64,000 nt of DNA, taken from Lachnospiraceae bacterium MD308 (GTDB lineage Bacteria; Bacillota; Clostridia; Lachnospirales; Lachnospiraceae). Each line of letters begins with the position of its first letter. The first letter of the stretch is position 1. The notes under the pieces are model-generated. The model did not search any database, was not told the DNA's origin, and saw only the letters and a program-made list of their open reading frames with translations. The stretch is taken from assembly GCA_000403475.2 (NCBI GenBank), contig KE159795.1, positions 1 through 64,000 of the forward strand, written 5' to 3'. Shown here in pieces: positions 1,346 to 6,492 of the stretch. The position numbers and the translations under genes are program-made.

Positions 1346-2078
1346 CTGCAAGCACCTCCTTTGTCAGAGAATCGTAAGCTGACGCCACTTTTCCCTTTGG
1401 ATCATGCTTGTAGATGCTGACACCCTCCGCTGAAATCTCCGCCGCCCGAACAGAAATAGGAATGATATTGGCAAATATTCTTACCCGGCTTCCATAGGCT
1501 TCCTTCAGCATGGCACTGATGTCCTTTGCGTAGTTCGTCCGGCTGTCCACCATTGTAAGCAGAATCCCCTCAATCTCCAGTTTTGGGTTAATCTGCCGCT
1601 TTACCTTTCCCACTGTCTTAATAAGCTGCTGCAAGCCTTTGACGGGCAGGTATGCCGCCTGTACGGGTATCAGGATACTGTCGGCGCAGGCAAAGGCGTT
1701 TATGGTAATCATGCCGAGGGAAGGCATACAGTCAATTAAGATATAATCGTAGCTCTCCCTGACAATCTCTATGTATGACCGGAGTACCGTTTCCCGGCTC
1801 ATGACATTCACAAGGGAAACCTCTAAACCAGATAATTCAATGTTCCCCGGCATAAGGTCTATCCCTTCCTCATGGTGGAGGATACCCTCTCCCGGCTCTA
1901 CTTCCTCGTCATTGATTAGATTGCCCATAATGGTTGCAAGCGTGACTTCCAGACTGTCCGGCTCTGTAAAGCCTAAACTTGCGGTCAGACTGCCCTGTGC
2001 GTCCGCATCAATCAGCAGCACTTTCTTTCCCTGTTTTGCCAGCCCGATTCCTAAATTGCTTGTGGTGGTGGTCTTGCC
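1335..2078 (-). pseudogene. parA: ParA partition ATPase, C-terminal fragment (split by RIT element)
   Basis: This piece encodes GKTTTTSNLGIGLAKQGKK, then VLLIDADAQGSLTASLG (Walker A' region) and YDYILIDCMPSLGMITINAF (Walker B). It is a MinD/ParA-type ATPase lacking only the first 14 codons. Those codons lie 3.46 kb away at 5541-5582. Joining the two fragments restores a 262-codon frame through the P-loop (KGGVG+GKTTTT) without a shift, so the gene was intact before the insertion. A GTG at 2021 could start a shorter product, but it would lack the nucleotide-binding loop. Confidence 0.9.
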
Positions 2079-2082
2079 AGTT

Positions 2083-2102
2083 TTATGTGAAGCTTCACAT
2101 AA
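2083..2102. repeat. Perfect 20-bp palindrome at the left RIT boundary
   Basis: TTATGTGAAGCTTCACATAA reads identically on both strands and lies between the parA codons and the left inverted repeat. No counterpart exists at the right boundary. It could be a recombinase core site, a circle-junction remnant or a transcription-blocking hairpin; which one is not shown by the sequence. Confidence 0.85.
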
Positions 2103-2106
2103 GACG

Positions 2107-2137
2107 GGTTATGAAAAGCTATACATTATGCAAAGTT
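2107..2137 (+). repeat. Left terminal inverted repeat of RIT element
   Basis: The repeat has the form GGTTATGAAAAG - 6 variable bases - ATTATGCAAAGTT and pairs with 5510-5540 on the other strand, matching at 26 of 31 positions. It is probably the recombinase binding site. Confidence 0.85.
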
Positions 2138-2239
2138 AATGATAGAAATCCTTATAAATAAAGGATTCTTTAGTTGATTTACTTTCCATAATCTATCACG
2201 ATTTAAGTGTATTTTATCAAATCACTTAAGGAGGAACAC

Positions 2240-3454
2240 ATGATGGAAAAATCAACTTTGCAGCAACTGATCAACCAAACCGGGGAAGCACTCGTACAGG
2301 CAGGTGCATCCAGCTATTACCAAAAAGTATTTAAAACTCTTACAAAACAGCTTTTGCTCTACTCCCACGAACAAGGTACTGATTCTTTCAGCATGGATTT
2401 TGGATTACAGTTTTTAGAAGACCATTATTCTATGTCATCTAAGATAGCGTTGAAAAAATGGTGTACAGCCTATTCCCGTTGTATAAATGCTTTGGCAGAA
2501 TACCAGCGTTCAGGGAATGTAGTTCTTTATCTTGCCATGGATAAAAGAGCATACACTTTCCCAGAGGGATTTAGATATAGCGCAGAAGCATATATTTCCC
2601 ATCGAGAAGATATCGGGATAATAAAAAAATCAAATAAGATTTTCAGTTTATATTTGGAGCGCTTTTTTGCGTTTTTAAGCAGGAAGAACATTACTTCTTT
2701 AGATACACTGTCTCTCAAAGACGTTTTGGATTTCATGGCATCTTTGAACTGTTATGAAAAGCCAACCATAAATCATACAATGCGTGCGGTGCGCTATTAT
2801 CTGAAATACTGCTATGAACATGGTCTTATGGAGCAGGAGATGTTTTCAAAACTTCCAAACCCTCATTACAACAGGCAGAGCCGATTACCTTCTTCGTATT
2901 CTGCGAATGAGGTGACAAAACTTCTTGACTCGATTGACCTTGGGAATCCCTGTGGAATCCGTGATTATGCAATCATTCTTCTGATTGCAAGACTTGGATT
3001 ACGCAGTAGTGATGTCGCAAATTTAAGGTTTTCCAATATCGACTGGGAAAGAGAAGTAATCCATTTGAACCAGGTAAAAACAGGAAATCCGTTAGAACTT
3101 CCTCTTTTAGAAGATGTTGGCGAAGCGATCATTAACTATCTGAAGAACGCAAGGCCTAAAACCGGCTCGGATCACGTTTTTGTGAGACAGGTTCCTCCTT
3201 ATACGGATTTCAATCCGGGTGCGGTCGGCGCCCTTGTAAGGGTACGTCTCCAGAGATCGGGAATCCATCTTGAAGGGAAAAAGAAAGGCTCCCACACACT
3301 CCGCCACAGCCTTGCGAGCCGCCTGTTGGAGCATGAGATTCCGCTTCCGGTCATTTCAGAAATCCTGGGGCACACAACTACTGAAACTACGATGGCATAT
3401 CTTCGTATTGATATCACCGAGCTTCGGAAATGTGCATTGGAGGTGGCAATCTAA
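2240..3454 (+). CDS. ritA: RIT tyrosine recombinase A
   Basis: This 404-residue protein has a SAM-like N-terminal arm/core-binding region (about 1-200) and a C-terminal catalytic domain. The catalytic set is visible: Arg in ARLGLRSSDVANLRF, His-x-x-Arg in SHTLRHSLASRLL, His in LGHTTTE, and the nucleophilic Tyr in TTMAYLRID. The ATG at 2240 follows AAGGAGGAACAC, which is a better start than the longer frame from 2207. Its stop TAA shares one base with the ATG of ritB (TAATG), indicating coupled translation. In RIT elements the three recombinases are always kept together and are thought to act jointly; the division of labour is unknown. Confidence 0.88.
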   Translation: MMEKSTLQQLINQTGEALVQAGASSYYQKVFKTLTKQLLLYSHEQGTDSFSMDFGLQFLEDHYSMSSKIALKKWCTAYSRCINALAEYQRSGNVVLYLAMDKRAYTFPEGFRYSAEAYISHREDIGIIKKSNKIFSLYLERFFAFLSRKNITSLDTLSLKDVLDFMASLNCYEKPTINHTMRAVRYYLKYCYEHGLMEQEMFSKLPNPHYNRQSRLPSSYSANEVTKLLDSIDLGNPCGIRDYAIILLIARLGLRSSDVANLRFSNIDWEREVIHLNQVKTGNPLELPLLEDVGEAIINYLKNARPKTGSDHVFVRQVPPYTDFNPGAVGALVRVRLQRSGIHLEGKKKGSHTLRHSLASRLLEHEIPLPVISEILGHTTTETTMAYLRIDITELRKCALEVAI

Positions 3455-4440
3455 TGACAAGAATCAGAAAATCTCCATCCATGACAGGTTCATTTGCGGA
3501 AGTTGCCCAGGAATTCATTCAGTACAAAAGAAGCACAGGTTTTAAATATGCAGATGAACCGAAATGTTTATCCCGGTTTTGTCGTTTCAGTGAAGAACAG
3601 AGTGTCACAGAAATAAAAATATCACGCTCCCTTGCAGAAAAATGGACAGCGCCCCGGGCAGGTGAATCCGAAAAAAGTCGGTCACACCGCATTACCTGCA
3701 TAAGACAGTTTGCCATATACCTTAATACCCTTGGTTATGACGCTTATATCGTGCCGGAAGTGAAGGGTTTGAATCACAGTTCATTTGTACCATATATATT
3801 TACACATGAGCAGATAGCAGCTGTAATCAAAGCCGCTGATGAAACAGAACCCAAAGAAGTTGCAAGAAATATGCATCTGGCGTTACCAGTGATCTTCAGG
3901 ATTCTTTATGGCTGTGGACTTCGTGTGTCAGAAGTTGTCGGACTTCGCTGCGGGGATGTAAATCTCGAAGATGGGATTCTTACGATCCGTGAAGCAAAGA
4001 CTGACCGTGACCGGTATATCCCATTATCAGATTCCGTAAAAGAAGCCTGTATATCCTATGCAGATAAAATCTGGTGGGAAAAAGACTGTGACTTTTTCTT
4101 CCCTGCTCCTGATAAGACCATGATCAGTCCGATGACTATCTATCAAAGGTACCGCAGGTATCTGGAAGCGGCAGGGATTTCACATGGAGGAAAAGGGCAG
4201 GGCCCCCGTCTGCATGATGTACGCCATACATTTGCGGTTCATGTTTTACAAAAGTGGATCAGGGAAGAAGCCGATTTAACGGCTATGCTCCCGATTCTTT
4301 CCACATATATGGGGCACAAAACAATACGCTCAACAGCAAGGTATCTGCGCCTGACAGCGGAAGTTTATCCAGACCTGATGAGGGAAGTGGAAAGGTCATG
4401 TGCATACGTCATCCCGGAGGTACGCCATGAAGGAAACTGA
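3454..4440 (+). CDS. ritB: RIT tyrosine recombinase B
   Basis: This 328-residue phage-integrase-fold recombinase carries the catalytic residues in YGCGLRVSEVVGLRCGDV (Arg), LHDVRHTFAVHVL (His and Arg), YMGHKTIRST (His) and ARYLRLT (Tyr). A GGAGG site eight to ten bases before the ATG at 3454 sets the start inside the last bases of ritA. The 3' end overlaps ritC by 14 nt. It is the shortest of the three and has a short N-terminal region (FIQYKRSTGFKYADEPKCLS) like other middle RIT recombinases. It acts on DNA in the cytoplasm, presumably at the terminal repeats. Confidence 0.87.
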   Translation: MTRIRKSPSMTGSFAEVAQEFIQYKRSTGFKYADEPKCLSRFCRFSEEQSVTEIKISRSLAEKWTAPRAGESEKSRSHRITCIRQFAIYLNTLGYDAYIVPEVKGLNHSSFVPYIFTHEQIAAVIKAADETEPKEVARNMHLALPVIFRILYGCGLRVSEVVGLRCGDVNLEDGILTIREAKTDRDRYIPLSDSVKEACISYADKIWWEKDCDFFFPAPDKTMISPMTIYQRYRRYLEAAGISHGGKGQGPRLHDVRHTFAVHVLQKWIREEADLTAMLPILSTYMGHKTIRSTARYLRLTAEVYPDLMREVERSCAYVIPEVRHEGN

Positions 4441-5440
4441 TTTTGCACAGTATTTAACGCAGTTCCTGTCAGTATATCTTCCCTGCCAGGTCGGCAGCAA
4501 ACGTAATACCCAGTTAGCATACAGGGACTCATTCTCATTATTTTTAAGATACTGCAGAGATCAGGAGAACCTTTTGCCGGAAAAGCTGACAGTTGCAAAA
4601 ATAAACAGGGATCTGATCCTCCGCTTTCTGCAATGGCTGGAAGAAGAACGTAACTGCAAAGCGGCGACAAGGAATCAACGTCTCGCTGCAATCCATTCAT
4701 TTTTCAGCTTTTTAATGGTAGAAGAACCACAGTATATACAGCAAAGCCAGAAAATCCTGGCTATTCCAATGAAAAAAACGGATACGGTGCCACTCATGTA
4801 TCTTCCATTGGATAGCATCAAGGGCCTGTTAGAACAACCCGACAGGACAACGATCCAGGGGAAAAGAGATGCTGTTCTGCTGTCACTTTTATATGATACC
4901 GGAGCAAGGGTTCAGGAACTTGTGGATCTAAAAGTTTGTGATGTTGCTTTAAATGATACTGTCACCATCGTACTGACAGGCAAAGGCGGTAAAAGCCGCA
5001 TTGTTCCAGTCATGAGACCAACTGGGGAATTGTTGAAGCAGTATATGGAAGGTTCTGGTCTGGCTTCGCCTGTATATGGTCGCAATCCGTTATTTACCAA
5101 CCGGAGCAATAAACCCCTGACGAGAGCCGGAGTGACATATATTTTGAAAAAATATGCTGCACAGGCTCAAGCAATGGGAATAAAGGATATATCCGATGAA
5201 ATCACACCGCATTGGCTGAGGCATAGCAAAGCAATGCATCTGCTTCAGTCCGGAGTCAATCTTGTTTATATCAGAGATCTACTGGGACATTCTGATATTT
5301 CAACAACCGAAATCTACGCACGGGCAGACGAAAAAATGAAGCGAAAAGCATTGACGGAAGCTTACAACAGTCCATCATCTGACGAACTGCCAGCGTGGAA
5401 AAAGGATAAAGACCTTCTTGATTGGTTGAAATCTTTATAA
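4427..5440 (+). CDS. ritC: RIT tyrosine recombinase C
   Basis: This 337-residue XerC/D-like recombinase keeps all catalytic residues: Arg in YDTGARVQELVDL, His/Arg in PHWLRHSKAMHLL, His in LLGHSDIST and Tyr in TEIYARADE. An N-terminal SAM-like domain spans about residues 1-110. A GGAGG just upstream of the ATG at 4427 fixes the start; an in-frame ATG at 4400 has no comparable site. It is the last gene of the trio, ending about 70 bp before the right terminal inverted repeat. The catalytic motif is closest to classical XerC-type integrases, so this may be the main strand-exchange enzyme, but that is inference. Confidence 0.87.
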   Translation: MKETDFAQYLTQFLSVYLPCQVGSKRNTQLAYRDSFSLFLRYCRDQENLLPEKLTVAKINRDLILRFLQWLEEERNCKAATRNQRLAAIHSFFSFLMVEEPQYIQQSQKILAIPMKKTDTVPLMYLPLDSIKGLLEQPDRTTIQGKRDAVLLSLLYDTGARVQELVDLKVCDVALNDTVTIVLTGKGGKSRIVPVMRPTGELLKQYMEGSGLASPVYGRNPLFTNRSNKPLTRAGVTYILKKYAAQAQAMGIKDISDEITPHWLRHSKAMHLLQSGVNLVYIRDLLGHSDISTTEIYARADEKMKRKALTEAYNSPSSDELPAWKKDKDLLDWLKSL

Positions 5441-5453
5441 GGGTTTACTCCTG

Positions 5454-5522
5454 ATTATGCAAAGTTCAAAAGAGCCTATACCCTATAAAATCAGCAAAAG
5501 TGTAGGCTCAACTTTGCATAAT
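5454..5522. repeat. Subterminal nested inverted repeat / hairpin at the right RIT end
   Basis: An extra copy of ATTATGCAAAGTT (5454-5466) faces the copy inside the right terminal repeat (5510-5522). Between them a second pair, AGCCTATAC (5473-5481) and GTGTAGGCT (5500-5508), also pairs at 8 of 9 positions. Together they can fold a long two-part hairpin just after ritC. The left end lacks this internal copy, so the two ends are not equivalent. Confidence 0.8.
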
Positions 5523-5540
5523 AACTTACTTTTCATAACC
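5510..5540 (-). repeat. Right terminal inverted repeat of RIT element
   Basis: Read on the minus strand it is GGTTATGAAAAG - TAAGTT - ATTATGCAAAGTT, matching 2107-2137. Its outer edge touches the parA codons directly. Confidence 0.85.
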
Positions 5541-5582
5541 GACTCCGCCTTTCTGGTTTGCGATTGCGATTATTTTACACAT
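5541..5582 (-). pseudogene. parA: ParA N-terminal fragment (start codon to P-loop)
   Basis: The 14 codons MCKIIAIANQKGGV begin at an ATG at 5582 preceded by GGAGAG and stop where the RIT element begins, in the middle of the GGVGKT Walker A loop. It continues in frame with 1335-2078 if the element is removed. In the present arrangement the frame runs into the RIT end and stops within a few codons. Confidence 0.9.
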
Positions 5583-5603
5583 GATAATTCTCTCCTTTGC
5601 TTT

Positions 5604-6247: not shown

Positions 6248-6311
6248 GCTTCTTTCCTCCAATTTTCTTTAATGAATGATTGACAGTTGCTAACGCAGCT
6301 TCCTCAAATAC

Positions 6312-6492
6312 ATTTGTTGCACCTTAAAACCGTCAAAAGTGCGCAAAAAAAGGACATTTCATTATTATTTGAAATGTCCTTTGGGTGGTGCTACTGACAC
6401 CACTAAATTATTTGTTGCACATCGAGTAAAAAATGTAATATGAAGTATTATTACATATTATTCAACAGAAATTTGTTGCACTTATGTTGCAC
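6312..6492. repeat. Cluster of ATTTGTTGCAC direct repeats at the putative element end
   Basis: Exact copies of ATTTGTTGCAC lie at 6312-6322, 6410-6420 and 6471-6481, and a fourth near-copy, TTATGTTGCAC, ends at 6492. They fill the 309-bp gene-free stretch (6248-6556) between the DUF6075-like gene and hemZ. Repeats of this size near the end of an integrative element are typical of integrase arm-type or accessory-protein sites. The exact attachment core cannot be defined because the other end of the element is outside the window. Confidence 0.7.
6349..6382 (-). terminator. Rho-independent terminator, minus strand
   Basis: A 13-bp perfect stem (AAAGGACATTTCA / TGAAATGTCCTTT) with an 8-nt loop is followed on the minus strand by seven Ts (6344-6350 region). 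It would stop transcripts coming from hemZ before they enter the element, or act as a leader terminator for the DUF6075-parA unit. Confidence 0.8.

Follow-up and report, generated by a model that had tools for sequence, protein, structure and literature searches.

A recombinase-in-trio element of Lachnospiraceae bacterium MD308 and its probable targeting of ParA P-loop codons

Near the start of a 64,000-nucleotide stretch of the Lachnospiraceae bacterium MD308 genome (contig KE159795.1, positions 1 to 64,000; hereafter the window), a recombinase-in-trio (RIT) element lies inside a parA gene, within the codons of the Walker A motif, or P-loop, of the encoded ATPase. Does this position reflect chance insertion followed by selection, a single inherited event, a benefit of breaking the gene, or recognition of the codons themselves? 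The evidence described below makes it very probable that the element is a transposon of the RIT type and that its recombinases recognise the P-loop codons of genes for ParA-family ATPases at the level of DNA. RIT elements and their repeat and palindrome were already known; the ParA P-loop targeting of the close lineage that includes the window element is well supported.

The split parA gene and its element

The parA head, MCKIIAIANQKGG, occupies window positions 5544–5582 on the reverse strand, from the start codon (5582–5580) to the exchange point, where it meets the overlap pentamer GTCGG (5539–5543, reverse strand), which represents the valine codon and two bases of the glycine codon. It reads MCKIIAIANQKGGV and is thus interrupted after NQKGGV and two bases of the following glycine codon. 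The gene restarts at the lysine codon of GKT (KTTTTSNLGIGLAKQGKKVL..., 2076–1335, reverse strand) with a tail that matches the Pfam families AAA_31 and CbiA, and its neighbour on the same strand is the parB gene of the carrier element (455–1351, Pfam ParB_N). The split head and tail, together with these matches, confirm the preliminary description, which had placed the element inside the Walker A codons. The insertion takes out the Walker A motif, and this copy of ParA should be inactive.

The element proper spans positions 2109–5538, with 3430 bp between the outer arms of its terminal inverted repeats. The left repeat (2109–2137, outer arm TTATGAAAAG) was delimited from sequence and comparison of genome copies, and the right repeat (5510–5538, outer arm CTTTTCATAA) from sequence and a side-by-side reading of six genome copies. 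Between the left repeat and the parA tail lie the linking hexamer GACGGG (2103–2108), a perfect 20-bp palindrome, TTATGTGAAGCTTCACATAA (2083–2102), and the tail-side overlap pentamer ACTGG (2077–2081, reverse strand). Inside the repeats, three co-oriented, adjacent tyrosine recombinase genes with short overlaps are carried on the forward strand, namely ritA (2243–3454, 403 amino acids), ritB (3454–4440, 328 amino acids) and ritC (4427–5440, 337 amino acids). All three products match Phage_integrase, and RitC additionally contains a SAM-like N-terminal domain. The length of about 3.5 kb, the terminal inverted repeats and the adjoining palindrome are those of RIT elements. Furthermore, the best counterparts of RitA, RitB and RitC occur in the same order in many remoter trios (tblastn; some rows end at contig ends, and the RitA alignment comprises 23 rows). 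RitA exceeds RitB and RitC in length; RitA proteins of RIT elements are described as having two successive core-binding domains (PMC8138268).

A DNA search revealed six RIT copies in this genome. All reside at ParA-type P-loops; they interrupt four or more parA genes and occur in both orientations. The parA of the window is interrupted at three contig ends, those being the start and end of contig C1 and the end of C3, where only the tail side is visible. Further parA genes are hit at C1:1417771 (GGVG/KTTTCANL, the slash marking the insertion) and at C1:245591 (GGVA/KTFTAVNL), and the copy at C4:339405–342856 (L089) is flanked by a parA head at either end and lacks the palindrome. Five palindromes exist in this genome, each of them attached to a RIT copy. 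A plasmid search with the DNA of the element returned a single short match.

The start and end of C1 are inverted copies of one carrier with 99.46% identity across 6262 bases, and all differences except one are found past window position 5588, outside the RIT. With its parA, parB and several copies, the carrier of the split parA appears to resemble an integrative element. Close to its presumed end, window positions 6300–6490 contain repeated TTTGTTGCAC-like words, possibly an attachment region.

Insertion sites and pentamer scars of close relatives

Relatives were collected by RitC searches of 299 genomes of the family, 392 of the order and 391 of the class, and additionally from genome contigs by RitC alignment (24 loci) and from viral contigs by both queries (20 and 4 loci). 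The second scan of viral contigs gave no further relative of the window's lineage, which we define by a RitC identity of at least 62%. With the same-carrier rows L091 and L092 and the duplicates L041, L059, L060, L061 and L119–L121 set aside, this lineage comprises 25 distinct loci in which a flank can be read, 22 of which lie at ParA P-loop codons. The insertion falls at the same codons in all 22 loci, over 21 distinct head sequences, and the head motifs hit are NQKGGVG, NQKGGTG, NQKGGCG, NLKGGVG, NLKGGVA, NMKGGVA and NNKGGVS. Nine more lineage rows have no readable flank (two of them, L105 and L179, may be one contig). The hosts include Lachnospiraceae, a Sarcina and one genome from another family of the order. 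Three viral contigs also carry RITs of this lineage, two of which (L039 and L041) share a flank and have identical tail-side scars. These counts, together with the six copies in the genome itself, support the earlier proposal that the recombinases recognise P-loop codons and have targets in many mobile elements.

On the ParA strand, the order of components is head arm AARGGNGGN, pentamer, repeat, element, repeat, hexamer, palindrome, one base and a pentamer, and tail arm NAARAC. The target pattern of the lineage is AAAGGNGG-GTNGG-NAARAC, and the exchange takes place across a 5-bp overlap, GTNGG, which corresponds to the V-G codons and has the variants ACNGG, GTNGC, GTNAG, GTNTC and TGYGG. In each of the 15 distinct loci whose tail side is readable, the palindrome separates the tail from one of the repeats. 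The head pentamer is unlike the tail pentamer in 12 of the 13 loci in which both can be read, and hence there is no target duplication. This disposes of the CC duplication that had been suggested for the window locus, where the palindrome separates the repeat from the tail, and GTCGG and ACTGG share only GG.

Wherever an uninterrupted relative is available for comparison, the target's own pentamer is found at the head, as in L094, whose GTGGG is that of L221, an uninterrupted relative with 96% identity. In L093, which interrupts a GGVA gene, GTAGC is kept at the head and the tail displays ACGGG, which is not expected from a GGVA gene. By a pattern that admits 26 of the 1024 pentamers (hand count), all 15 elements have a P-loop-like pentamer between palindrome and repeat, and 12 of 15 have one on the tail side. 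The three misses are all TTAGA and all come from genome G413, in which L180 occupies a TTAGA site and the sister copies L180–L182 share the matching TTAGA scar. Our reading is that the pentamers on either side of the palindrome document earlier targets. In the window, ACTGG would have been imported with the element, and the ACGGG contained in the hexamer would be the scar of an earlier P-loop target. In Tn916-type elements, the circle carries short overlaps from the preceding target site as coupling sequences, and Tn916 itself has little target specificity. The pentamer scars are comparable to such coupling sequences, but here the overlaps are the P-loop codons themselves.

Uninterrupted parA genes, which the preliminary description proposed to look for in sister elements, were found by searching 150 genomes of the family with each of two parA tails, that of L094 and that of the window. 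Relatives were present in 10 and 14 genomes, the own genome counted. Those uninterrupted at the P-loop are L221–L230, L232 and L233 for L094, and L235–L247 and L249 for the window's parA, the latter with 70–82% identity. One additional locus, L231 (G025:C35 near 320), displays a parA tail preceded by unrelated sequence with an imperfect palindrome adjoining GKT, perhaps a different element at the same site.

At three loci (L089 in the own genome, L095 and L111), a single RIT joins two different parA heads and the palindrome is missing. No palindrome attached to two tails was found in the own genome, which suggests that the DNA between two parA genes was lost rather than simply inverted. The two-headed loci are thus probable products of RIT-mediated deletion or fusion.

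Targets of distant RIT lineages

The distant set comprises 74 loci with RitC proteins about 32 to 54% identical, from which the lone recombinases L087 and L088 had been removed beforehand. No parA insertion was found among them. By our reading, 42 of the 74 lie at other conserved motifs, often with one motif hit in different replicons; many of these assignments were made by eye, and some rest on a single flank. The most frequent are what we take to be the PQGG/xxSP motif of group II intron reverse transcriptases (L074, L135, L136, L138, L196, L201), the HE/xxH motif of ArdC-type metallopeptidases (L142, L143, L213, L214, L218, L219), the Walker B motif of IstB (L139, L140, L207, L210, L215, L216) and the catalytic tyrosine of recombinases (L065, L132–L134, L183). 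Presumed targets hit less often are the IstB Walker A motif (L203, L206), recombinase HxLR/H (L066), AlbA/HATPase_c_4 (L067, L068), the integrase core close to its last catalytic residue (L073, L195, L204), Strawberry notch (L141, L212), cytosine methyltransferase (L191, L199) and an ExQ nuclease-like protein (L069, L187). The single cases are, presumably, an M23 peptidase (L137), an asparagine synthase (L192), a type III restriction subunit (L197), a TetR protein (L202) and an IS256 element (L209). These loci are partly non-independent, as the flank of L213 repeats that of L142, L135 and L136 reside in introns related to each other, and one RIT can recur in several of the loci. L065 is the reverse of the two-headed form, with palindromes at both sides and both flanks apparently being recombinase tails that start near the catalytic tyrosine.

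The remaining 32 distant loci include five in recognisable genes (L071, L082, L184, L193, L208), at positions not established as motifs, and 27 in which a contig end intervened, no terminus was detected, or the flank was non-coding or could not be assigned. A Pfam run on 40 flank pieces from 23 distant loci (22 of the 42 and L184) matched both flanks to one family at adjoining profile positions in ten cases (L066, L135, L138, L140, L142, L143, L191, L203, L206, L209), for example IstB 158/156 in L140, RVT_1 126/124 in L138 and MPTase-PolyVal 51/52 in L142. The same run gave no match for L069 and L187, and for one flank each of L192, L199 and L202 it did not return the family named above.

Targets follow phylogeny. 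A RitC tree was built from 60 rows (L113, L118, L207, L213, L219 and nine flankless rows being outside it), and in this tree the ParA lineage, consisting of 17 ParA rows and the three exceptions described below, forms a single clade with an SH-aLRT support of 100. The target labels require 23 changes on the tree, compared to 41.3 in shuffles, and none of 200 shuffles was as low when the exceptions were treated as their own group; near-copies help this clustering, and long branches join in several places, which leaves the deep order unsure. The reverse transcriptase, recombinase tyrosine and IstB Walker B targets are each found in two separate groups.

RITs in unrelated sequence, which the preliminary description regarded as evidence against P-loop targeting, do exist: the distant RITs lie elsewhere, as do three of the 25 close loci. 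The other 22 close loci are at the P-loop, and the objection applies in part. We consider it moderately likely that RITs as a class home to motifs, the three recombinases of each lineage reading the DNA of a conserved catalytic motif (ParA P-loop, reverse transcriptase, IstB Walker A or B, ArdC HExxH, recombinase tyrosine and cytosine methyltransferase being examples). Lineages would then switch motifs, some motifs would have been adopted more than once, and the palindrome pentamers would log earlier visits.

A model of targeting, its alternatives and its meaning

We propose the following model for the insertion of the ParA lineage. The mobile form would be a circle in which the ends are arranged as repeat, pentamer, palindrome, pentamer, repeat. 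Each side of the palindrome would constitute a core site with two facing arms around an overlap, and one of these sites would recombine with the P-loop site, as a result of which the palindrome flanks would retain the pentamers of earlier targets. Different recombinases may read different arms, and the dissimilarity between the target's head and tail arms and those of the element may be why three are needed. If a resident copy then recombined with another parA, two parA heads could be joined and the intervening DNA dropped. The benefit would probably be an address that is conserved, widespread and in most cases dispensable, on mobile elements that then transport the transposon.

Several points weigh against this interpretation. 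Mobility is deduced from the several copies and their differing sites, and no circle was seen. Three of the 25 lineage loci are off ParA: L107 (head NLKEAAS), L180 in a gene that by reading resembles a secretion adaptor (LQKDVLD/KES), and L181 on the antisense strand of a MerR gene. L180 is also the locus in which head and tail pentamers are identical. The P-loop-like pentamer pattern was set after inspection of the data, and the pentamers of related copies, which share scars, are not independent. Many loci come from metagenome-assembled genomes or draft contigs. Finally, four ParA-type P-loops of the own genome that match AARGGNGGNNYNGSNAARACN are unoccupied, among them those of a Soj-like gene (L128) and a MinD-like gene (L131), both named by reading; either the motif is insufficient or insertions there are selected against. 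The off-ParA loci are informative in themselves. A matrix built from 21 ParA heads places L107, L180 and L181 within the best 75, 467 and 18, respectively, of 127,954 window positions, which argues that the site is read as DNA, loosely enough for near matches to be used. The antisense orientation of L181 rules out recognition of the protein motif as such. L180 and L181 come from the same genome, G413, as L182, which is in a ParA.

The intact chromosomal-type P-loops just mentioned are what would be seen if insertion were wide and copies survived mainly in the parA genes of mobile elements, these being dispensable. Dispensability, however, predicts a spread across the whole of parA and other mobile genes, whereas the same codons are hit in 22 of 22 loci with 21 distinct heads. 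This clustering at a single position refutes random insertion with selection as the sole cause and makes that account very improbable, but selection may still decide which P-loops stay occupied. A single ancient insertion into a parA ancestor, inherited or shuffled by recombination, could mimic repeated targeting, and some rows do share a carrier (L090, L091 and L092; L039 and L041), which means fewer events than rows. Yet the RITs interrupt different ParA families (NQKGGVG, NLKGGVA, NMKGGVA, NNKGGVS and NQKGGCG) in both orientations and with different scars, several parA genes are hit in one genome, and the close relative L221 is uninterrupted. We reject one inherited insertion on these grounds and give it hardly any credence.

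The preliminary description went further and saw in the insertion a strategy of disabling the partition of a rival element, such that targeting would have been selected for inactivating competing plasmids or integrative and conjugative elements (ICEs). The expected inactivity of the split ParA agrees with this. Interrupted carriers nevertheless persist and were found more than once: the interrupted parA is present in at least two ICE-like copies and on two viral contigs (L039 and L041), which shows that the interruption is tolerated by the vehicle. Moreover, the element holds three recombinase genes only, and distant RITs are found at conserved motifs of many unrelated genes, some of them apparently non-mobile (the asparagine synthase gene of L192 and the TetR gene of L202). 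We therefore regard selection for disabling rivals as very unlikely. Conserved codons serving as a widespread address are the simpler and more economical reading.

In Cupriavidus metallidurans and other bacteria, RIT elements were described as being about 3.5 kb long, with three tyrosine recombinase genes that adjoin and overlap, an inverted repeat, an overlapping palindrome and several identical copies (PMC3414803); the window element shares the gene trio, the size, the repeat and palindrome, and the occurrence in several copies. The same source calls the need for three recombinases hard to see. Elsewhere, two similar rit elements are reported to inactivate a radC gene each (PMC2864759). According to a 2023 table, the target site specificity of RITs has had no formal test, and the same paper states that transposition has not been reproduced (PMC10214605). 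Our search of the open literature by title and start of abstract found no ParA or motif targeting rule for RITs; the RIT literature, as far as these excerpts go, is thus without such a rule, whereas the window's lineage has one.

By architecture only, the element can also be likened to MIC of Bifidobacterium longum, which has three contiguous integrases, a 96-bp inverted repeat, a 20-bp palindrome and several copies, one of them at a deletion border. MIC differs in its palindrome and repeat sequences and in its flanking IS3 elements, and the portion of its report at hand describes no target motif (PMC2430713). In SE and GInt elements, several tyrosine recombinases likewise cooperate; the SE circle takes up six bases beside one end, and several unrelated GInts recur at ssb. 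These elements have four core genes, and the available sections of the two sources describe no preference for active-site codons (PMC10214605, PMC5385486). Between the repeats of the window element we find the three trio genes and no Tfp/GinC and Srap/GinD pair completing a set of four core genes, no protein search for SE/GInt having been made.

RIT elements are found in a wide range of bacteria. With a defined target, their transposition can be tested directly on a short cloned site. If motif homing is general, protein active sites, which freeze DNA across unrelated replicons, would be the addresses of a whole class of transposons, and the host gene would be disrupted with no splicing out of the kind seen in inteins and introns. 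RITs would then be a source of recombinases that recognise conserved coding motifs, and in mobile elements their insertions may account for some of the repeated losses of parA, group II intron and IS21 functions.

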